From the NCBI RefSeq assembly GCF_900091455.1, contig NZ_LT607412.1, positions 4,712,001 to 4,776,000 on the forward strand: a stretch of 64,000 nt of DNA. The letters are read 5' to 3'. The notes beneath the pieces are model-generated. The model saw only the letters and a list, made by a program, of their open reading frames with translations. It searched no databases and had not been told where the DNA came from. Source of the DNA: Micromonospora coriariae. Its GTDB lineage: Bacteria; Actinomycetota; Actinomycetes; Mycobacteriales; Micromonosporaceae. A program made the position numbers and the translations under genes. This document shows, piece by piece, positions 20,971-36,511 of the stretch (position 1 is its first letter; the number at the start of each line of letters is the position of its first letter).

Positions 20971-22620
20971 TCAGGCGAAGCAGTTCTCGATGGTGCCGCC
21001 CGGGATGGCCAGGCAGTTCGTCGGACGGTTCGCGGTGATGGCGGACTTGTCGTCCACGTTCACGTCTCCGAAGAAGGTGAACACACCGCCCGGAGCGAAG
21101 GTGGAGAAGTTGTGGGCGACCTTCGTCTTCGACAGGTTGACCTCGCCGAAGATGTTGAAGATGCCGCCGCCGACCCCGAACGGGCCGATGGCCCGGTTCC
21201 CGACGACCTCGCTGTCGCGCAGCGTGGTGACGCTGAGCGTGTTGAAGACACCGCCGCCGAAGAAGCCGGCGGTGTTGTCCTTGATGGAGCTCTTCTCGAC
21301 GGTCACCGCGCTGTCGAAGGCGATGGCCAGGCCACCACCGACGCCGACGGTGCTGTTCTTCTCCACCGAGACCTTGTGCAGGTTCAGCTGGCTGTCCGCC
21401 GCGGCGATGCCACCACCTGCGAGGAACGCGGTGTTCGAGACGAACTTGGTCTCGTACGCTGTGGTGTTGCCCTCGATGTCGAGGAGGCCACCGCCGAAGC
21501 CCAGCGTCTCGTTGTCGCTGATCTCGGTCTTCTTCAGCTCGACGGTCCCGCCGTCGACGTCATCGGTGAAGATCCTCGCGGCGCCGTTCGAGATACCGCC
21601 ACCGCCGATGATGGCGGTGTTGTCCTTGATCTTCGACTCCTCGACCTTGAGCAGGCCGGCGTTGAAGACGCCGCCACCGAAGAAGAAGGCGGTGTTGCGG
21701 GTGATTGTGCTGTGCCAGATCTTCGTGGTACCGAAGTTGGCCACGCCACCGCCGTTCCCGCCCGACTGGTTGAGGACGACCTCGGACTCCAGGATGTCGG
21801 CTGAGCCGCCCGGCTGGACCAGGATGCCGGCGCCGTCGCTGAAGCCCGGGTGCTCGACGAGCGGCGTGACGACCCCGTCCTGAGCGGTCGGCGCGGCCTT
21901 GGGCGTGGCCTTCGGCGCGGCCTTCAGGGCCGCCTTCGGGTTGGCCTGTCGCGTGGTGAGCGCCTGGTTCAGCGGTACGCCGGCCTTCACCTGCGCGGCG
22001 ATCGCCTCGGAGTCCGAGTAGGCCCCCCAGACCTCCGCCGGCTGGACGGGCAGGTACCGCTCGAGGGTCTGACCGCCCTTGATGGTCAGGCCCTTCACCG
22101 TGAGGTGCCCACCGCTGCCGACGTTGAGGATCCGGAAGTAGTCGGCGGTGGCGTCCCGGCTGATCGTCGTGTGGTCACCCTTCAGCGTGATCCGCTCGGT
22201 GATGATCGGCAGGCCGTTGCCGTAGTAGTCGTTGCGGGTCAGGTTGTAGGTGCAGCCCTTGGCCAGTTCCAGCACACCGCCGTGCTTGTTGTTGGCGAAC
22301 GTGATCGCCTGAATCAGCTTGTCGGTGTCGCAGGGCACCTCCTTCCCGCGCTCGTGGTCCTTGTCCTTGTCCCGGTCCTTGTCCCGGTCCTTGTCCTTGT
22401 CCCACTCGCGACCCTCGTCACCGCGCTGGTCGCCGTCCTTGCTGACCTGTGCGGTGTTCCAGTTCAGGCTGCCGACCGCGCCGGCGCTGCCCGCGACGCC
22501 CACCGCCGCGAGACTGATCACGCCCGTCAATCCGGCTACGCCACTGGCGAGCCAGAGCTTGCGGCGGCGCTTGGCCGTCGCCTGCCCGGAGGCTTCGTTG
22601 TTCGTTAGGTAGTTGGACAT
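20971..22620 (-). CDS. Secreted right-handed beta-helix protein (copy A)
   Basis: 549 residues. Basic N-terminus with KRRRK, a hydrophobic segment ~22-48, then a 20-residue region of alternating Lys/Arg and Asp (~77-96). Next come CDTDKLIQAITFANNKHGG and a long series of beta-helix coils, each with a [GG]G[IVL]xN or NTAxxxGGG motif (for example NTAFFFGGGVFN, NTAIIGGGGISN, NETLGFGGGLLD, NSTVGVGGGLAI, NTAGFFGGGVFN). This is the pattern of parallel beta-helix adhesins, lyases and Pmp-like surface proteins; no catalytic residue set was recognised. The paralogue upstream at 22921 shares the same coils. The gene is headed by a 144-bp leader also found before the paralogue. Confidence 0.85.
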   Translation of the reverse strand: MSNYLTNNEASGQATAKRRRKLWLASGVAGLTGVISLAAVGVAGSAGAVGSLNWNTAQVSKDGDQRGDEGREWDKDKDRDKDRDKDKDHERGKEVPCDTDKLIQAITFANNKHGGVLELAKGCTYNLTRNDYYGNGLPIITERITLKGDHTTISRDATADYFRILNVGSGGHLTVKGLTIKGGQTLERYLPVQPAEVWGAYSDSEAIAAQVKAGVPLNQALTTRQANPKAALKAAPKATPKAAPTAQDGVVTPLVEHPGFSDGAGILVQPGGSADILESEVVLNQSGGNGGGVANFGTTKIWHSTITRNTAFFFGGGVFNAGLLKVEESKIKDNTAIIGGGGISNGAARIFTDDVDGGTVELKKTEISDNETLGFGGGLLDIEGNTTAYETKFVSNTAFLAGGGIAAADSQLNLHKVSVEKNSTVGVGGGLAIAFDSAVTVEKSSIKDNTAGFFGGGVFNTLSVTTLRDSEVVGNRAIGPFGVGGGIFNIFGEVNLSKTKVAHNFSTFAPGGVFTFFGDVNVDDKSAITANRPTNCLAIPGGTIENCFA

Positions 22621-22764
22621 CGGAGCTCTCTGCCCTCTCCTCGTACCAGACAGGGTCGCCGCCCTCAGGCGGGCGTCCCCTGCTACAAATCGGTTGTAGC
22701 TCCCAAAACCACCGTATGAGAAGGATCCTCGCCTCGCGGGCTTATCCGAAAGAAGCCCACATTC
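22621..22764 (-). promoter_or_regulatory. Conserved structured leader/promoter of beta-helix gene A
   Basis: The 144 bp before ATG 22620 align base by base, with only small indels, to the 144 bp before the paralogue (24727-24870). Shared blocks (minus strand) are GGATAAG, CGAGGAT, TTCTCATACGGTGG, CAACCGATTTGTAGC and GTCTGG. Elements: inverted repeat GGGCTT...AAGCCC; stem-loop GCTACAA/TTGTAGC with loop ATCGG (plus strand 22682-22700); a GC stem; and pairing of AGCTCC (22698-22703) with GGAGCT (22622-22627) right at the start codon. Interpreted as promoter plus a 5' UTR that can fold. No known riboswitch was recognised. Confidence 0.6.
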
Positions 22765-22858
22765 GGTTCGTGTTCGCCGTGGGCGGCCCGGACACCCCGG
22801 TCGGGCACAGGCTCACCCAAGGCGATCGTCGGCCCCTGTGACCTGCCCAAACAGGTAC

Positions 22859-22891
22859 GCCCCTCCGCCGCCGTCACCGGCTCGGAGGGGC
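22859..22891 (-). terminator. Hairpin terminator of beta-helix gene B
   Basis: Arms GCCCCTCCG (22859-22867) and CGGAGGGGC (22883-22891). It lies 30 bp past the stop codon at 22921 of the minus-strand gene. Confidence 0.75.
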
Positions 22892-22920
22892 GCACCCTCT
22901 ATGTGGATCAGCCCCACCGA

Positions 22921-24726
22921 TCAGGCGAAGCAGTCCGGAACGTTGAAGCAGTTGGTGGGGCGGTTGGCGGTGACGGCGGACTTGTCGTCCAGCGTCACGG
23001 TGCTGCCGAGGTTGTTGAAGATGCCCCCGGGCGGGAGGGTGGCGAAGTTGTGCGCCACCTTCGTCCGGTGGAGCGTGACCTCGCCCCTGTCGGTGTTGAA
23101 GATGCCGCCGGCACGGGCGAACGGACCGACGGCCCGGTTGCCCACCACCTCGCTGTCGCGCAACGTGGTGACGCTGTCCTCGTTGAAGAGGCCGGCGCCG
23201 AAGAACCCTGCCGTGTTGTCCTTGATCCAGCTGTTCTCCACAGTCGCGGCGCTGTCGAAGGCCACCGCCAGGCCACCACCCACGCCGGCGGTGCTGTTCC
23301 CGGCCACCGTGGCGTGCTTGAGGGTGAGCTGGCTGTCGGCCACCGCGACGCCGCCACCGGCGAGCAGCGCGGTGTTGTCGCTGACCTTCGTCTCGTGCAG
23401 GGTCGTGGTGCCCTCGACGTCCAGGACGCCGCCGCCGAAGCCGAGCGTCCGGTTGTTGGCGACCTCGCTCTTGTAGACCCAGACCGAGCCGCCGTCGACG
23501 TCGTCGGTGAAGATCCTCGCAGCGCCGTTGGCGATGCCGCCACCACCGATGATGGCGTTGTTGTCCTTGATCTTCGACTCGTTGACCTCGAGTACGCCGG
23601 CGTTGAAGACGCCGCCGCCGAAGAAGAAGGCGGTGTTGTGCGCCACGGTGGTCTTGATGAGCCGGGCGGTGCCGAAGTTCGCCAGCCCGCCGCCGTTGCC
23701 GCCGGACTGGTTGTACAGCAGCTCGCTGTCCAGGATGTCCGCCCGGCCGCCGGGCTGCACCAGCACCCCGGCACCGTCGTTGAACCCGGGCTCCTCCACC
23801 AGCGGTACCGCCGCGGGCCCAGCCGTCGCCGGCTTCGCCGCCGCGGCGGCGGGGTCGGAGCTCGCCGCTGCGGGCTTGGCCGCTGCAGGCTTCGCCGCCG
23901 CGGCTGCCGGCTTGGCTGCCGGAGCTGCGGGTTTGGCCGCCGGGGCCGCCGACTTGGCCACCGTGGGCTTGGTCGCTGCCGGTTCGGCCACGGCGCCCGG
24001 CTTCGGCGTCGCCGTCGTGGCAGGCTTGGCCGCCGAGGTCGTCCGGACCGACGGCGAGTACGGCGCCCAGACCGCCGCCGGGTCCATGGTCATCGCCCGC
24101 TGGAGGGTCTGGCCGCCCTTGATGCTCAGGCCCTTGAGGGTGAGGTGCCCGCCGGGGCCCACGTTGAGGATCCGGAAGTGATCGGCGGTGGCGTCGCGGC
24201 CGATGGTGGTGTGCTCGCCCTTGAGCGTGATCCGCTCGGTGATGATCGGCAGGCCGTTGCCGTAGTAGTCGTTGCGCGTGAGGTTGTAGGTGCAGCCCTT
24301 GGCCAGCTCCAGCACGCCGCCGTGCTTGTTGTTGGCGAACGTGATGGCCTGGATCAGCTTGTCGGTGTCACAGGGGACCTGCTTGGTGCGGTCCTTGGCG
24401 TCGTGCTTGTCGTCCTTGCCCGACGCGTCGTCGAAGCCGCTCCAGTCGCCGCCGCTCCACTCGTCGCCCGGGTCCTGGCCGCTGTTCTCCTTGGCGTTGT
24501 CGCCCGCGCCACCGTCGTCGCTGACGTTCTGCCGGTTGGTTGACGGCTGCGCGTCGGACACCTGGTTCGAGTTGGGCTTGTCGTCCCGGGCGGCCAGGCC
24601 GCCGAGGGCCGCCAGCCCGACCACGCCGGTCAGCCCGGCCACGCCGGCGACCCAGAGAGCCCGCCGTCGTCGTGTCGGCGGAGCCGTCGAGGCCCCGCCG
24701 TCGGTACTCGTTACGTCGTTGGACAT
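22921..24726 (-). CDS. Secreted right-handed beta-helix protein (copy B) with Ala/Pro/Lys repeat
   Basis: 601 residues from ATG 24726, which is preceded by GGAAGG. The architecture is that of copy A: arginine-rich N-terminus (RRRRALWVAGVAGLTG) and hydrophobic segment, a linker, CDTDKLIQAITFANN, NLTRNDYYGNGLPIITERITLKG and a beta-helix of NTAxxxGGG coils (NTAFFFGGGVFN, NAIIGGGGIAN, NTALLAGGGVAV, NTAGFFGAGLFN). Differences: residues ~231-307 are a repetitive Ala/Pro/Lys segment (AAKPAAPAAKP type), replacing the short charged region of copy A. Such a segment could span or bind the cell wall. No catalytic motif was seen. It is next to copy A on the same strand, so the pair arose by tandem duplication. 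Confidence 0.85.
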   Translation of the reverse strand: MSNDVTSTDGGASTAPPTRRRRALWVAGVAGLTGVVGLAALGGLAARDDKPNSNQVSDAQPSTNRQNVSDDGGAGDNAKENSGQDPGDEWSGGDWSGFDDASGKDDKHDAKDRTKQVPCDTDKLIQAITFANNKHGGVLELAKGCTYNLTRNDYYGNGLPIITERITLKGEHTTIGRDATADHFRILNVGPGGHLTLKGLSIKGGQTLQRAMTMDPAAVWAPYSPSVRTTSAAKPATTATPKPGAVAEPAATKPTVAKSAAPAAKPAAPAAKPAAAAAKPAAAKPAAASSDPAAAAAKPATAGPAAVPLVEEPGFNDGAGVLVQPGGRADILDSELLYNQSGGNGGGLANFGTARLIKTTVAHNTAFFFGGGVFNAGVLEVNESKIKDNNAIIGGGGIANGAARIFTDDVDGGSVWVYKSEVANNRTLGFGGGVLDVEGTTTLHETKVSDNTALLAGGGVAVADSQLTLKHATVAGNSTAGVGGGLAVAFDSAATVENSWIKDNTAGFFGAGLFNEDSVTTLRDSEVVGNRAVGPFARAGGIFNTDRGEVTLHRTKVAHNFATLPPGGIFNNLGSTVTLDDKSAVTANRPTNCFNVPDCFA

Positions 24727-24870
24727 CAGAGCCTTCCGCCCTTTCCTGCTACCAGACGGGATCGCACCGCCCAAGGCGCGCGACCAGCTACAAATCGGTT
24801 GCAGCCTCTGATCCCCACCGTATGAGAACCATCCTCGCGATGCGGACTTATCCGAGAAAAGCCCGCATTC
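24727..24870 (-). promoter_or_regulatory. Conserved structured leader/promoter of beta-helix gene B
   Basis: Counterpart of the leader of copy A. The distance from GTATGAG to the start codon is 94 bp in both. The stem-loop here is GCTACAA (24787-24793) with TTGCAGC (24799-24805), which keeps pairing through a G-U in the RNA. Around the start codon, ATCAGAG (24725-24731) pairs with CTCTGAT (24806-24812), in place of the GGAGCT/AGCTCC pair of copy A. Confidence 0.6.
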
Positions 24871-25026: not shown

Positions 25027-26508
25027 TCAGCCGGGCAGGCGCGGCCCTGCCTCGCGCTGCTCGGCCAGCCAGGTCTCCACCTCGTCGGAGGTGCGCGGCA
25101 GGCCGGCCGACAGGTTCACCGCGCCGGTCGCGGTGACCAGCACGTCGTCCTCGATCCGCACGCCGACGCCACGCAGCTCGGCGGGGACCAGCTCGTCCTC
25201 CGGCTGGAAGTACAGCCCCGGCTCGACGGTGAGCACGTAGCCCTCGCCCAGCGTGCCGTCGCGGTACGTCTCCTTGCGGGCGTTCGAGCAGTCGTGCACG
25301 TCGATGCCGAGCATGTGGCCGAAGCCGTGCAGCGTCCACCGCCGGTAGACCGAGGACTTCTCGTCCATCGCCTCGTCCACGCTCACCGGCAGCAGGCCCA
25401 GCTCCGACAGGCCCTCCGCGAGCACCCGCATGCAGGTCAGGTGGACATCCTTGAACTTCACCCCGGGCCGGATGGCCTCGATGCCGGCCTGCTGCGAGGC
25501 GTACACGATGTCGTAGACCTGGCGTTGCAGGGCGGTGAACCGGCCGCTCACCGGCAGCACCCGGGTCACGTCGGCGGTGTAGAGGTTGCGGCCCTCGACA
25601 CCCATGTCCATCAGCAGAAGCTCGCCCGGCCGGGTCGCGCCGTGGTTGTGCACCCAGTGCAGGATCGTGGCGTGCTCGCCGGCGCCGACGATGGAGCCGT
25701 ACCCGACGTCGTTGCCGTCGTGCCGGGCCCGCAGCGCGAAGATCCCCTCAAGGAGCCGCTCGGAAACGGCGCGGTCGGCCGGCAGGATCCGGGCCACGTC
25801 CTCGAAGCCGCGCACAGTGGCGTCGATCGCGTCCTGGAGCTGACCGATCTCCCACTCGTCCTTGACGAGCTTCTGCTCCGAGATGGCGATCGCCAGCTCC
25901 CGGTCGCGGGGCGGCTGCCCCTCGGCACGGACCCCGTCGTACGGGCGGACCGCCGCGTCCACCTGGGCGTCGAACCCGCGCAGCACCCGGGTCCGCCCCG
26001 GCGGCAGGTCGGCCAGCGTCGCCTCCAGGCCGGTCAGGTCGGCGGTGGGCAGGCCCAGCTCGGTGGACTTCTCGCTGAGCGTGTGTCGCCGGCCCACCCA
26101 CAGCTCGCCGTGCCGGCTGCGGAAGAACTCGTCGGTCTCCCGGGACGAGCGCGGCCGCATGAACAGCGTGGCGTCGTGCCCGGAGCCGTTCGGGCGCAGC
26201 ACCAGCACGCTGTCCGGGTCGTGGTCGCCGGTCAGGTAGGCGAAGTCACTGCCCGGCCGGAACGGGTAGGCGGTGTCGTTGGCCCGGACCTTCTCGGGGC
26301 CGGTCGGGATCACCAGCGTCTCGCCGGGGAAGGCCGCCGAGAGCGCAGCCCGCCGCTTGGCGTAGTTGGGGGCCTCCGGCCGGGGCGCCACCGGGAGCGC
26401 GCTGTCCCGCCAGCCCTGCCGCATGAAGGACAGGAACGCCTCCGGGAAGTCCGGATCGTGCGATTCCGTACCGTCCGTCGGCGTACCGTCGGTGCGTCCC
26501 TCGGTCAT
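25027..26508 (-). CDS. pepP: Xaa-Pro aminopeptidase (aminopeptidase P)
   Basis: 493 residues from ATG 26508, which follows GGAGGGAGC. Cleaves N-terminal residues next to proline. The N-domain (AMP_N) includes YAKRRAALSAAFPGETLVIPTGPE and RPGSDFAYLTGDHDPDSVLVL. The pita-bread catalytic domain has metal-site motifs HNHGATRPGELLLMDMGVEG (Asp), ADVTRVLPVSG (Asp), HGFGHMLGIDVHD (His), VLTVEPGLYF (Glu) and GVRIEDDVLVT (Glu); all five ligands are present. Cytoplasmic, probably monocistronic, role in peptide recycling. Confidence 0.95.
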   Translation of the reverse strand: MTEGRTDGTPTDGTESHDPDFPEAFLSFMRQGWRDSALPVAPRPEAPNYAKRRAALSAAFPGETLVIPTGPEKVRANDTAYPFRPGSDFAYLTGDHDPDSVLVLRPNGSGHDATLFMRPRSSRETDEFFRSRHGELWVGRRHTLSEKSTELGLPTADLTGLEATLADLPPGRTRVLRGFDAQVDAAVRPYDGVRAEGQPPRDRELAIAISEQKLVKDEWEIGQLQDAIDATVRGFEDVARILPADRAVSERLLEGIFALRARHDGNDVGYGSIVGAGEHATILHWVHNHGATRPGELLLMDMGVEGRNLYTADVTRVLPVSGRFTALQRQVYDIVYASQQAGIEAIRPGVKFKDVHLTCMRVLAEGLSELGLLPVSVDEAMDEKSSVYRRWTLHGFGHMLGIDVHDCSNARKETYRDGTLGEGYVLTVEPGLYFQPEDELVPAELRGVGVRIEDDVLVTATGAVNLSAGLPRTSDEVETWLAEQREAGPRLPG

Positions 26509-26639
26509 TGCGCGCTCCCTCCGTGTCATTGCTGGTCCCGACGGTACCGCGCGCCCGGTTCGCGGTGGCGCCGGCCGGAGCGCTCCGGATCGACGGACGG
26601 CTGCGACGGGCCCCCGGCGCGCGTGGGAAGATGACCACC

Positions 26640-29819: not shown

Positions 29820-30269
29820 GGGTTCTCCTGACTCGCGGGGCGCGCCGCCCGAGCCGCCCCGCCGCAATCGGGTGGGATGTGGCCTTGTCGCCCCGCTGCA
29901 AGGAGCGGAAGCGATGATCACGGTCAGTGCCCCGGCGGGAATCGGCCGGTGGACACGTGCCGTCAACGGTCCCTGTCGTGGACCGGCGCCCTCGCGTCGA
30001 ACGAACCCGGCAACCGGCGGCGCGGCAGCCCTCGCACCGCCCGGTACGCGTCATCCCACCACGCCCTCCGGCCGTTGCGCAATAGCCCGTTCTCGATGTG
30101 TCAGGCCACCCTCTCCAGGTTGTCGGACGCTCGTACGGCCCACGGCCCGTGCCGTGGCACATATTCTTCGCATGCGGCCGCCTACGGCTTCGTGGCGATG
30201 CCACCGGGCCGGGCGGCTCGACCGGTACCCGGCGGCCGCTGCGGCGGCGAGACGGAGAGGCGACCGAGC
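29820..30269. other. 450-bp intergenic region between LPMO and XdhC-like genes
   Basis: Divergent promoter region. I see an AGGAGA ribosome site for the LPMO gene, a palindrome GTGCCGTGGCAC (30149-30160) and an AT-rich CACATATTCTTCG just beyond it, a possible -10 area for the XdhC-like gene. A 14-bp CebR box (TGGGAGCGCTCCCA) is not present. No gene is supported. Confidence 0.4.
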
Positions 30270-31421
30270 GTGCCCGACGTGTTCGAGGAGCTGCACCGCC
30301 GCTGCCGCGCCGGCGAGGCGGTCGCCCTGGCCACCGTCGTGGCCACCTGGCGGTCCGCGCCGCAGCCGCCCGGCGCCAGCATGCTGGTCGCGGCCGACGG
30401 CACGGTCACCGGCAGCGTCTCCGGCGGCTGCGTCGAGGCCGACCTCTATGAACGGGCCCGCATCGTGCTCGACACCGGCGCCCCGGAGTTGACCCGCTAC
30501 GGAGTCAGCGACGACGCCGCGTACGCCGCGGGCCTGACCTGCGGCGGTGAGCTCGACGTGTTCGTGGAGCGGATCGACGGCGGCGACCTCATGGAGCTGG
30601 ACGCGGTCGACGCGGCGCGCCGGGCCGGCCAACCGGTGGCGGTGGCCACCTGCGTGGCGGCCGACGCCGGCGATCCGCCGAGAGCGGTGCCGATCGACCC
30701 GGCGGGGCGGCTGGGCCGGCGGCTGGTGCTGACCGGGCAGCGGGTGACCGGCTCACTCGGCGACGACCGGCTGGACGCCGCCGCCACCGCCGACGCCCTC
30801 GGCCTGCTCGTCGCCGGGCACAGCGGGGTGCTCCGGTACGGCTACCACGGGCAGCGCCGGGGCGTCGGCCTGAGTCTCTTCGTGGCCGCGTACGCCACCC
30901 CGCCCCGGATGATCGTCTTCGGGGCCATCGACTTCGCCGGCGCGGTGGCCCGGATCGGCGCGTTCCTCGGCTACCGGGTGACCGTCTGCGACGCCCGTCC
31001 GGTCTTCGCCACCGCTCGACGCTTTCCGGAGGCGGACGAGGTGGTGGTGCGGTGGCCGCACCGCTACCTGGCGGCGGAGCTGGACGCCGGCCGTGTCGAC
31101 GGGCGGACCGTGGTCTGCGTGCTGACCCACGACCCGAAGTTCGACGTGCCGCTGCTGGCGCTGGCGCTGCGCCACCCGCTGGCGTACGTCGGCGCGATGG
31201 GGTCGCGGCGGACCCACGACGAGCGGCACAAGCTGCTACGCGAGGCGGGGCTGAGCGCGGAGCAGCTCGCTCGGCTCGCCTCGCCGATCGGGCTGGACCT
31301 CGGTGGGCGTACCCCGGAGGAGACCGCGGTGAGCGTGGCCGCGCAGATCGTCGCGGCCCGCTGGGGCGGGACCGGTCGCCCGCTGACGGCACTAGCCGGG
31401 CCGATCCACCAGGCGGGGTAG
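30270..31421 (+). CDS. XdhC/CoxI-family protein
   Basis: 383 residues, GTG 30270. The N-terminal XdhC_CoxI domain shows VALATVVATWRSAPQPPGASMLV and VTGSVSGGCVEADLY; the C-terminal Rossmann domain shows RMIVFGAIDFAGAVARIGAFLGYRVTVCDAR and LAYVGAMGSRRTHDERHKLL, as in XdhC. XdhC proteins insert or sulfurate the molybdenum cofactor of xanthine dehydrogenase-type enzymes. No molybdenum hydroxylase gene is nearby, so its partner is elsewhere. The usual G-x-G-x-x-G nucleotide motif is a variant here (FGAIDFAGAVA). Confidence 0.9.
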   Translation: MPDVFEELHRRCRAGEAVALATVVATWRSAPQPPGASMLVAADGTVTGSVSGGCVEADLYERARIVLDTGAPELTRYGVSDDAAYAAGLTCGGELDVFVERIDGGDLMELDAVDAARRAGQPVAVATCVAADAGDPPRAVPIDPAGRLGRRLVLTGQRVTGSLGDDRLDAAATADALGLLVAGHSGVLRYGYHGQRRGVGLSLFVAAYATPPRMIVFGAIDFAGAVARIGAFLGYRVTVCDARPVFATARRFPEADEVVVRWPHRYLAAELDAGRVDGRTVVCVLTHDPKFDVPLLALALRHPLAYVGAMGSRRTHDERHKLLREAGLSAEQLARLASPIGLDLGGRTPEETAVSVAAQIVAARWGGTGRPLTALAGPIHQAG

Positions 31422-35014: not shown

Positions 35015-36511
35015 TCAGGCCGGGCGGCGGGCGGCGTGCGCGCGGAAGGTCAGCTCGGCTGCCAGGCCCCACGCCTCCGACAGATCCCGGTCCTGTGCCG
35101 CCGCGCCCGAACCGCCCGCGGTGTCCGCGTAGACGGTGGCCAGCCCGAGCCGGCGCTGCGCCGGCCCCTGCACCACCCGCACGCTCTGGATCCGGGCGTA
35201 CGGCACGATCGCCACCTGCCGGGTGAGCAGCCCGGACCGGGTGGCGAAGACCCGCTCGAACAGGCCGGCGCCGAGCGCGCCCCGGCCCAGTGGGTGCAGC
35301 CAGCGGGCCCGGGGTGGCGGTGGGGCCAGCGCCAGCGCGTCGAGGCGTACCCCTGGCAGCACCTCGGTGACGATCATCGTCGCGGTCGGCAGGTCACCGA
35401 CCGGCAGCAGGCGGTCCGGCCGGTTGCGGTCGTCGGCCTCGGCGACGGAGTAACCGGCAACCTCCAGCCGCAGCCGCAGCCAGCCCTTCACCCGCCAGAG
35501 CAGCGGCCAGGTGGCCCGTACGGTCTGAACCCGGTCCAGCGGCACGGTCTGCGCCCGGGTCTCCAGCAGGCCGTTGTGCACCCGCAGCGTGCCGTCGTCG
35601 CGGGCCAGCCGGAAGTTCCAGTCGTCGAGGACCCGGCGGATCGGTTGCAGCAGCACACCGGCCATCGCGGTCAGCGTGCTCGCCACCGCGACGAACGACC
35701 ACGACCCCGCGGTGAGGAACTGCACCACGACGAAGGCCACGCCGAACGGGAGCAGGAATGCCTGCGGGGTGAGCAGTTGGCTGACCAGCAGGCTCTGGTT
35801 GCGTACCGCGTGCAGCGGGCGGCCCGGTGCGGCCAGCGGCGGCGCCGTCCCGGGGGCCGCCGCGGACGGCGCGAGGCCCGGCGCGGGCGGTTGTGACGCG
35901 CGGCCGGCGAGCGCCAGCAGCCGCTCGCGCAGCCGGGCCGCGTCGGCCACCCCGAGGTACGCCAGCGGCGCCTCGGTCTTGCCCCCGCCGACCACCTCGA
36001 GCCGCAACTCGGCCAGGCCGGTGAGCTGGGCGAGCAGCGGCCGGACCACCTCCACGGCCTGCAACCGCTCCAGGGGAATCGCCCGGGTACGCCGCCAGAG
36101 CAGCCCCTCGTACACCCGCAGTTCGCGGCCCACCACGTGGTAGCCGGTGTTGTACCAGCTGATCACTGACAGCACGGTCGCGCCGAGCGCCAGTACCACC
36201 ACCATGGCCGCGAACCAGCCGAAGCCGACCCGGGACAGCGTCGACCAGGACAGCCCGGCGATCACCACGACCAGCGACTTGGCCCCGTGCAACAGCGGGC
36301 TGAGCGGGTGCAGTCGCTGACGCGGCTCGCCGTCGCCGCCCGTTGCCGGCAGCGGCCAGGGATAGGGCACCCCGGGCGGCACCGCCGCGTAGGGCACCGC
36401 TCCGCCGGGCGCGTAGGGCGGCACCGCGCCGCCGGGGGGCGGGCCGGTGGGAGGCGCGCCACCGGGCGGCCGGGGCGGGCCGGTGCCAGGCTCGGCGGGA
36501 TGGTCGGTCAT
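35015..36511 (-). CDS. PH-domain membrane protein (YdbT-like)
   Basis: 498 residues. The N-terminal ~65 residues are a Pro/Gly-rich disordered stretch. Two to three bPH2/YdbT domains follow: YHVVGRELRVYEGLLWRRTRAIPLERLQAVEVVRP, DDGTLRVHNGLLETRAQTVPLDRVQTV and RSGLLTRQVAIVPYARIQSVRVVQG, with membrane segments between them (AAMVVVLALGATVLSVISW, AFLLPFGVAFVVVQFLTAG). Function unknown; YdbS/YdbT pairs are membrane proteins proposed to protect against antimicrobial peptides. It lies downstream of the YdbS-like gene (40-bp gap), in the same operon. Confidence 0.9.
   Translation of the reverse strand: MTDHPAEPGTGPPRPPGGAPPTGPPPGGAVPPYAPGGAVPYAAVPPGVPYPWPLPATGGDGEPRQRLHPLSPLLHGAKSLVVVIAGLSWSTLSRVGFGWFAAMVVVLALGATVLSVISWYNTGYHVVGRELRVYEGLLWRRTRAIPLERLQAVEVVRPLLAQLTGLAELRLEVVGGGKTEAPLAYLGVADAARLRERLLALAGRASQPPAPGLAPSAAAPGTAPPLAAPGRPLHAVRNQSLLVSQLLTPQAFLLPFGVAFVVVQFLTAGSWSFVAVASTLTAMAGVLLQPIRRVLDDWNFRLARDDGTLRVHNGLLETRAQTVPLDRVQTVRATWPLLWRVKGWLRLRLEVAGYSVAEADDRNRPDRLLPVGDLPTATMIVTEVLPGVRLDALALAPPPPRARWLHPLGRGALGAGLFERVFATRSGLLTRQVAIVPYARIQSVRVVQGPAQRRLGLATVYADTAGGSGAAAQDRDLSEAWGLAAELTFRAHAARRPA

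Follow-up and report, generated by a model that had tools for sequence, protein, structure and literature searches.

A duplicated and probably structured mRNA leader upstream of paralogous beta-helix genes in Micromonospora coriariae

Translational riboswitches hide the ribosome-binding site or the start codon of an mRNA, fourU and ROSE are RNA thermometers, and long-lived mRNAs of the ompA type carry 5' stabilising stem-loops, in which RNases that depend on the 5' end are blocked by a hairpin placed right at that end. For Actinobacteria, comparative genomics has catalogued cis-regulatory structured RNA leaders, among them Actino-pnp, msiK and mraW (PMC2864571). In the window analysed here (64,000 nucleotides of Micromonospora coriariae, contig NZ_LT607412.1, positions 4,712,001 to 4,776,000; coordinates below are those of the window), two adjacent genes are each preceded by a copy of the same leader, which is very probably a real structured RNA.

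The two genes, A and B, are paralogues whose proteins are 64% identical. Their family was left unnamed by sequence searches of Pfam (gene B without a match), NCBIfam (two matches far below the cut-off) and the PDB, and its identity as a beta-helix family comes from the predicted fold: the AlphaFold2 model of the gene A product (mean pLDDT 76; residues ~91-190 and ~261-540 mostly confident) consists of three-strand coils, and its Foldseek matches are right-handed beta-helices, for example AlgE6 (5lw3, E = 1.9e-4, TM 0.33/0.44). The GGGIxNxG repeats of the gene B protein are also kept in relatives. The features of the two copies are as follows.

20971..22620, minus strand: gene A, beta-helix protein of 549 amino acids (MSNYLTNN...), paralogue of gene B (open reading frame)
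22622..22627, minus strand: copy A, P1 3' arm AGCUCC, one base 5' of the AUG at 22618-22620 (sequence, folds)
22633..22642, minus strand: copy A, ribosome-binding region GAGGAGAGGG (alignment)
22653..22680, minus strand: copy A, GC-rich hairpin P3, GGGGACGCC...GGCGACCC (sequence and folds)
22682..22688, minus strand: copy A, P2 3' arm UUGUAGC (covariation, alignment)
22694..22700, minus strand: copy A, P2 5' arm GCUACAA (covariation, alignment)
22698..22703, minus strand: copy A, P1 5' arm GGAGCU, three bases in common with P2 (sequence, folds)
22711..22716, minus strand: copy A, TACGGT, -10-like box (conservation)
22736..22764, minus strand: copy A, upstream DNA element GAATGTGGGCTTCTTTCGGATAAGCCCGC (ungapped conservation, leader alignment)
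22921..24726, minus strand: gene B, secreted or membrane-anchored (TM) right-handed beta-helix protein, 601 amino acids from its ATG (MSNDVTST...) (open reading frame, GGGIxNxG repeats)
24724..24731, minus strand: copy B, P1 3' arm CUCUGAU at 24725-24731, overlapping the AUG at 24724-24726 (sequence, B-lineage support)
24732..24747, minus strand: copy B, ribosome-binding region AGGAAAGGGCGGAAGG, part of a proposed, unconfirmed stem P4 (conserved in alignment A1)
24759..24785, minus strand: copy B, hairpin P3, GGUCGCGC...GUGCGAUC (both-side changes, swap test)
24787..24793, minus strand: copy B, P2 3' arm UUGUAGC (covariation)
24799..24805, minus strand: copy B, P2 5' arm GCUGCAA (covariation)
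24806..24812, minus strand: copy B, P1 5' arm AUCAGAG (sequence, B-lineage support)
24817..24822, minus strand: copy B, TACGGT, -10-like box (TAnnnT in the clades examined; conservation)
24840..24870, minus strand: copy B, upstream DNA element GAATGCGGGCTTTTCTCGGATAAGTCCGCAT, at a fixed distance from TACGGTG (ungapped conservation across clades)

An earlier note, made from the letters alone, had described the 144 bp 5' of each ATG as matching and GTATGAG as equally spaced; indeed the leaders align over their full length with only two one-base gaps, and GTATGAG starts 94 bp from the start codon in both copies. The complementary segments that it had picked out (AGCTCC/GGAGCT in A, CTCTGAT/ATCAGAG in B, the P1 arms listed above) lie where it located them, as do its second stem with a G-U pair (GCUACAA/UUGUAGC in A, GCUGCAA/UUGUAGC in B) and the GC stem between. 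The P1 3' arm ends one base before the ATG in A and takes in two ATG bases in B, and the start-adjacent sequence, said to be not conserved, differs less than claimed (GGCTCTG-ATG versus AGCTCCG-ATG). Set against dinucleotide shuffles, the minimum free energies of the 111-nt leaders had z-scores of -2.48 (B) and -2.26 (A); for longer leaders of 148-150 nt the values drop to -1.98 (B) and -0.17 (A).

The leader is present in 157 of 160 Micromonospora genomes. A covariance model (R2) found it in 118 of the 300 genomes of a family sample, in 6 of 44 genera, and in a class sample of 246 genomes the matches were confined to its own genus, under stricter filters by which weak matches are lost. All 10 weak R2 matches inspected stop where a beta-helix gene begins, and so do 21 of the 24 lower-scoring ones that were inspected out of 25 stretches taken. 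When loci were found by the protein alone (the best 80 of 126 relatives, at 74 loci), 51 of the 74 had an R2 match, which in 50 cases, including all 40 of the loci L219-L258, lay directly upstream of the gene. The leader marks one beta-helix protein family and stands at a fixed position before its genes; homologous leaders with covariation are found in other genera and in the paralogue clades C and D.

The earlier note had recognised no known riboswitch family, in agreement with Rfam 15, none of whose models attains its gathering score at any point of the window; sub-threshold searches with the copy A leader and ten related loci returned implausible families only, the copy B leader being covered by the gathering-score search alone. 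A search of a phage collection gave no match. Among the top titles of full-text searches none describes such a leader, and among the matches listed for a mapped transcription start in Micromonospora, Actinoplanes or Salinispora nothing was usable.

For the comparison between leaders, 111 sequences were reduced to 99 distinct rows, 90 of B (alignment A1, made with MAFFT) and 9 of A (A2). Sets of 97 and 89 loci were hand-picked to thin near-identical ones, the smaller leaving out L201, L216 and L217, which do not stand before a beta-helix gene; a further set of 12 loci was cut to 8 by a filter. Leaders were sorted by hand into 11 clades, of which five consist of one sequence and one of two, and clades of paralogues from a single genus are only partly independent. 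When pairing halves were exchanged between these clades, own partners paired better in P2 (p = 0.0001) and in P3 (p = 0.00075), in columns of alignment A4, which like A3 leans towards the structure of the covariance model because it was aligned with it. The earlier note had proposed a structured RNA leader for a surface protein, and this covariation across homologues, upstream of a secreted or surface-type family, bears it out, with weak significance for single pairs.

In a 98-row alignment both sides had changed at 14 of 25 pairs (86 cells), a level reached by 0 of 500 shuffles, which ignore relatedness. A phylogeny-preserving null with branch-length weights gave aggregate z values of 9.4 and 7.7 on A4 and, on A1 as aligned by MAFFT, of 2.1 and 3.5. 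Taken singly, hardly any column pair was significant against this null, the best being a P2 pair with E = 0.02, and the test in its earlier version yielded no significant pair. From A1, RNAalifold returned P2 alone; P3 is thought to slip out of register there. P3 pairs had changed on both sides in 9 of 11 cases in A1 and in 10 of 11 in A3. Compared with shuffles, without use of the model's alignment, the P2 window was more stable (p = 1.5e-4 over clade medians; not significant singly in clades B, median 0.17, or C, 0.34), and the P3 window gave p = 0.058 overall. Swaps within clades A, D and g32 lent no support to P2 or P3 (P3 in A, p = 0.77); in clade C, where P2 is largely re-drawn yet still pairs, the within-clade swap gave 0/3000. 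On this comparative evidence P2 and P3 are RNA helices, and the two hairpins, the best covarying elements, are the robust conserved core. The strongest covariation may sit in the stems noticed second, not in the start-codon stem.

P4, considered as a covarying Shine-Dalgarno stem, was unsupported (swap p = 0.54; stability of the ribosome-binding window p = 0.80), and no conserved thermometer-type stem over the Shine-Dalgarno sequence was found; CCUUU/AAAGG hairpins over this region occur in part of the B leaders only. Pairing of the P2 loop with TACGGT as a pseudoknot was weighed by eye and discarded, since the bases of this loop are variable in B and not the same in clade C.

The start-codon stem P1 is supported in the B lineage, weaker in C and weak in A. 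Its complementarity lies above 95% of composition shuffles in 26 of 47 B leaders, 7 of 16 C, 1 of 8 A and 0 of 8 D leaders; permutation within the B lineage gave p = 0.025 (p = 0.042 on 69 distinct arm combinations) and the clade swap p = 0.0195. Combined over the 11 clade medians p was 0.29, and D and the four single-sequence clades g36, g21, g20 and g32y gave no support. The compensatory start-codon pair of the earlier note therefore stands for the B lineage but not as a general rule. Predicted pairing of the AUG exceeded 0.5 in 33/47 B, 1/8 A, 1/8 D and 3/16 C leaders, and the B leaders are predicted to form a multibranch fold closed by P1. That two stems compete in copy A, as also noted before, agrees with the energy model, in which they are mutually exclusive (P(P1) = 0.95, P(P2) = 0.01; best folds -41.8 kcal/mol with P1 and -37.6 kcal/mol with P2). 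The two states are 1.4-4.2 kcal/mol apart in four of five A-type leaders tested; the fifth (L101) has lost P1 and favours P2.

Just upstream of P2 and P3 lies the near-invariant TACGGTG, which shares with the upstream element an ungapped conservation of the DNA type. It is probably the -10 box of a promoter (one set of loci behind it leaves out eight, L002-L009), and we infer that the upstream element is a promoter or activator site. Between the box and the P1 5' arm there are only 4 nt in B and 7 nt in A, so that transcription may start on or inside this arm.

We tentatively propose, as quite possible if short of probable, that the leader is a cis-acting structured 5'UTR specific to Micromonosporaceae that tunes the translation of the secreted beta-helix family. 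Transcription would start just 3' of the TACGGTG box, which would put hairpin P2 nearly at the 5' end of the mRNA; P3 would come next, and a short linker carrying the ribosome-binding site would lead to the AUG. In leaders of the B lineage, pairing of the first transcribed bases with the start codon region (P1) would close the multi-branched fold, and translation would remain low until the fold is opened, be it by temperature, a ligand, a protein or competition from ribosomes. In copy A the two stems, with bases in common, are predicted alternatives, so that the open state would have P2 and the closed state P1. As the fold covers the start codon in one branch, the leader probably helps to set the amount of protein. 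It seems unlikely to us that one may go further and speak of a new family-specific class of RNA switch, in which the first bases of the mRNA lie either in P1 (off) or in P2 (on) and the paralogue clades re-drew both stems by compensatory change without altering the topology, one outcome being a second version in Salinispora paralogues that is unrelated in sequence. If true, the proposal would add to the antibiotic-producing actinomycetes a post-transcriptional control element tied to a large secreted beta-helix family unnamed by Pfam and NCBIfam, and the two copies in one genome would offer a natural comparison of compatible (B) versus mutually exclusive (A) stems.

It is conceivable, though doubtful, that P2 and P3 merely stabilise the mRNA, a 5'-end hairpin keeping off the RNases that depend on this end, and that P1 of the B lineage is a by-product without switching. 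The two best supported hairpins do lie right behind the putative start, the AUG is mostly unpaired in the predicted A, C and D leaders, pairing that covers the ribosome-binding site is not general, and P4 does not covary. A stabilising hairpin would not, however, need a P2 that is mostly invariant in sequence within Micromonospora A and B, nor would it explain the P1 5' arm of the B lineage, of which 4 of 7 positions are at least 90% conserved and whose complementarity to the start region exceeds that due to composition.

The same conservation of P2, the P1-closed multibranch fold in B, and the exclusive stems of copy A with their energy differences would suit a switch that responds to a ligand or to temperature, be it an RNA thermometer or a riboswitch of a new class, in which P2/P3 would sense and P1 would serve as expression platform. 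We consider this decidedly unlikely, as only 3 of the 34 lower-scoring loci inspected have a target outside the one protein family, with no metabolic theme, and L101 does without P1. Stem and loop of P2 are changed in clade C and several other genera, and no unpaired aptamer-like core common to the clades was seen; with these changes and the matches in its own genus only in the more strictly filtered class sample, no ligand-binding core conserved in distant taxa was found.

That the P2 inverted repeat with its surroundings is a DNA operator or promoter, RNA structure not being selected, is most improbable: a 7-5-7 repeat shortly after a -10-like box does resemble an operator, and the conservation further upstream is of the DNA type, but an operator should be indifferent to G-U versus A-C, whereas the non-Watson-Crick cells of P2 in A3 are 70 G-U, 0 A-C and 4 other, P2 of clade C pairs although re-drawn, and P3 keeps pairing through changes on both sides. 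A recent tandem duplication alone, with complementarities due to chance, would fit two adjacent, similar paralogues and is contradicted by the cross-clade covariation of homologous leaders in other genera and in clades C and D, which leaves it next to no credence.

The proposed leader, which would tune translation in cis, can be set beside the known systems. It resembles RNA thermometers such as fourU and ROSE in that some B leaders carry a CCUUU/AAAGG hairpin over the ribosome-binding region, and differs from them in that this hairpin is limited to a subset of the B leaders and P4 lacks covariation. With the ompA-type stem-loops it has in common hairpins directly behind the presumed transcription start; unlike these, P2 in Micromonospora A and B is conserved beyond the need of stability. 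Like the catalogued Actinobacteria leaders (PMC2864571) it was found by conservation and covariation as a structured 5' leader before one gene family, and unlike the entries named there it has no Rfam 15 match at the gathering score, precedes other genes and occupies a narrower taxon. In contrast to translational riboswitches it serves one protein family and shows no conserved unpaired core across clades; like them, it is predicted to pair its 5'-most bases with the start codon in the B lineage, closing a multi-branched fold, and to form two mutually exclusive stems in copy A.

The 144 bp before the two paralogous beta-helix genes, leaders A and B, had been described as a duplication, and they align end to end with just two one-base gaps. 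GTATGAG starts 94 bp from the start codon in A and B alike, as the earlier note had it, and the complementary segments that it quoted were found in place when checked in the sequence. The features of the window discussed here are:

before ATG 22620, minus strand: leader of copy A
before ATG 24726, minus strand: leader of copy B
22736-22764 (A) and 24840-24870 (B), minus strand: upstream DNA element GAATgtGGgcTTttTTCgnATAAgncC, at a fixed ungapped distance from TACGGTG
25027-26529, minus strand: aminopeptidase P (PF05195/PF00557)
29877-31421, plus strand: XdhC family protein
35015-36511, minus strand: bacterial PH (bPH_2) domain protein

Folded at 111 nt, both leaders beat their dinucleotide shuffles in stability, with z = -2.48 (B) and -2.26 (A); lengthening them to 148-150 nt lowers the effect (z = -1.98 and -0.17, respectively).

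A 160-nt query from copy B matched 157 of 160 Micromonospora genomes, with 1-3 matches per genome, and one of the three genomes left over (G046) matches the covariance model. Eighty further stretches, 30 loci and copy A yielded 111 leaders, 99 of them distinct. A first covariance model, built from 90 B-type leaders, found the leader in 46/200 genomes of the family (3/44 genera). A second model (R2), built from 98 matches, found it at E<=0.1 in 118/300 family genomes (6/44 genera) and in 3/246 genomes of a class sample, all three Micromonospora, the filters in both large searches being stricter, with loss of weak matches.

Ten weak matches, with E from 2e-4 to 0.34, all run up to the start codon of a gene for a beta-helix protein, and the proteins behind them have a common N-terminal plan. 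A further 24 lower-scoring matches (E 2.7e-6 to 1.9) include 21 that likewise end at a beta-helix start; the three without such a gene are L201 (E=0.003), which is unrelated sequence, L216 (E 1.6) and L217 (E 1.9). When the search started from the protein (74 loci from the best 80 of 126 relatives), R2 matched 51 loci, including 40/40 of L219-L258; 50 matches lie directly upstream of the gene and the remaining one (L281) on the opposite strand. The 23 loci without an R2 match are paralogues from Salinispora and Actinopolymorpha; in two of them, L284 and L285, the gene start is too close to the edge of the DNA to judge. By this comparison of sequences the leader marks one gene family. In L211 and L197, two of the 21 loci above, it precedes a beta-helix gene with an early stop (186 and 95 codons, respectively), apparently a decaying or frameshifted copy.

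The beta-helix protein has no match in Pfam and none by PDB sequence search. AlphaFold2 predicts a repeating three-strand coil (mean pLDDT 76), for which the top Foldseek matches are right-handed beta-helices (for example mannuronan epimerases and tailspikes) with low TM-scores.

Twelve Salinispora paralogues (L261, L265, L267, L268, L271, L278-L281, L286-L288), whose proteins begin MN or MH, have a different leader built on the same plan as that of A and B, aligned for 8 of the 12 loci. It sits about 110 nt before the start codon in the order hairpin GGCUACCG..GGUAGCC, hairpin GAGGAA..UUCCUC, GGGGAAGGA, ATG; R2 gives no match upstream of these genes. The TACGGTG-type leader was not found at the Actinopolymorpha paralogues L259, L266, L273, L275, L276 and L291, and an upstream GAGTTGATT is common to L266, L273 and L276.

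The covariation test on homologous leaders that the earlier note had called for was favourable for the GCUACAA/UUGUAGC hairpin (P2) and the GC-rich hairpin (P3). Each pairs better with the arm of its own clade, swaps among 11 clades weakening the pairing (P2, p=0.0001; P3, p=0.00075). Inside clades, swaps also had an effect in B (P2, p=0.006; P3, 0/3000) and C (0/3000; 0.005), and none for either stem in A, D and g32. The 98-row model-guided alignment has both-side changes in 14/25 pairs (86 cells; matched by 0/500 shuffles) and a plain MAFFT alignment of 90 B-type leaders in 11 of 31 pairs (reached by 2/500) with 40 cells (0/500), both shuffle tests taking no account of kinship. The aggregate score for the structure, set against a phylogeny-preserving null, was far above simulation in a model-guided alignment (z=9.4 and 7.7) and in moderate excess in the plain one (z=2.1, reached by 7/200 simulations, and 3.5). 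Individual pairs seldom pass this null (best E=0.02, a P2 pair), and an earlier version of the test gave no significant pairs.

In the 98-row alignment P2 holds 70 G-U and no A-C cells, which argues for an RNA rather than a DNA palindrome. Over clade medians, with the model's alignment unused, the P2 window beats shuffles in stability (p=1.5e-4), driven by A, D, g32 and g36, with no significance in B (0.17) or C (0.34) alone; the P3 window gave p=0.058 and the ribosome-binding-site window no excess (p=0.80). Comparison across the clades shows P2 and P3 as RNA stems.

The compensatory start-codon stem (P1) held up in the B lineage and not as a general rule. Pairing with the start region was better than 95% of composition shuffles in 26/47 B leaders, 7/16 C, 1/8 A, 1/5 g32, 1/2 g10x, 0/8 D and 0/5 single-sequence clades. 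Over 11 clade medians p was 0.29 (0.91 for a control arm lying 5' of the -10-like box), and the arm swap among clades gave p=0.0195. Permutation inside lineages gave p=0.025 for B, 0.044 for C, 0.20 for g32, 0.54 for D and 1.0 for A. In g32, arm and target are unlike those of B yet paired (in L152, GACGUUAAGU with GCUUGAUGUC), and in C and D the 5' arm, judged by eye and for D without statistical support, pairs with the Shine-Dalgarno stretch, not AUG. On this comparative evidence we regard P1 as genuine in the B lineage and, in leaders outside it, as a plausible candidate theme.

The Micromonospora paralogues of clades C (L188, L191, L192, L198, L200, L203-L209, L212-L215) and D (L156, L190, L194, L195, L197, L199, L202, L210) keep the leader plan of A and B with P2 re-drawn, as GGUGACCGAC/GUCGGUCACC in L191.

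AUG pairing above 0.5 is predicted in 33/47 B leaders. In L043 and L050, two of six B leaders folded, the 5' arm prefers codons 2-4 and leaves AUG open; these genes start ATGTCTGATGAC, codons 2-4 holding a second UCUGAUG copy able to capture the arm. The competition proposed for copy A is borne out in the predicted folds, where three bases common to P1 and P2 make the stems exclusive (best folds -41.8 kcal/mol with P1, -37.6 kcal/mol with P2). The two folds differ by 1.4 to 2.5 in three further A-type leaders; in a fifth, L101, P1 has been lost and P2 is favoured by 6.5.

The leader's left edge is marked by TACGGTG, or by a TAnnnT variant, in all clades examined, and in most of them a GAAT..TTC..ATAAG element lies upstream at constant ungapped distance, a pattern typical of promoter DNA. 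The GAATgtGGgcTTttTTCgnATAAgncC element, which includes an inverted repeat in copies A and B and is present in most other clades, is probably a promoter or activator site. With TACGGT as the -10 box, transcription would begin at or inside the 5' arm of P1, just before P2; the literature, among the matches listed, held no mapped start for Micromonospora, Actinoplanes or Salinispora.

We propose that the leader, with its transcript beginning at this putative start, is a cis-acting 5' UTR element that would set translation of the beta-helix protein. P2-P3 would be its conserved body and P1, in the B lineage, a lid over the start codon; in copy A P2 may represent the open and P1 the closed state. 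The chief alternative is that the 5' hairpins serve purely to stabilise the mRNA.

The view in the earlier note that the leader belongs to no known riboswitch family agrees with Rfam 15, which gave no match at gathering score in the whole window; sub-threshold searches with the copy A leader and ten related loci returned implausible families only. No title among the open-access matches listed describes this leader, and the part of PMC2864571 consulted names other actinobacterial motifs. The leader adds to the structured cis-acting leaders, an already known class.
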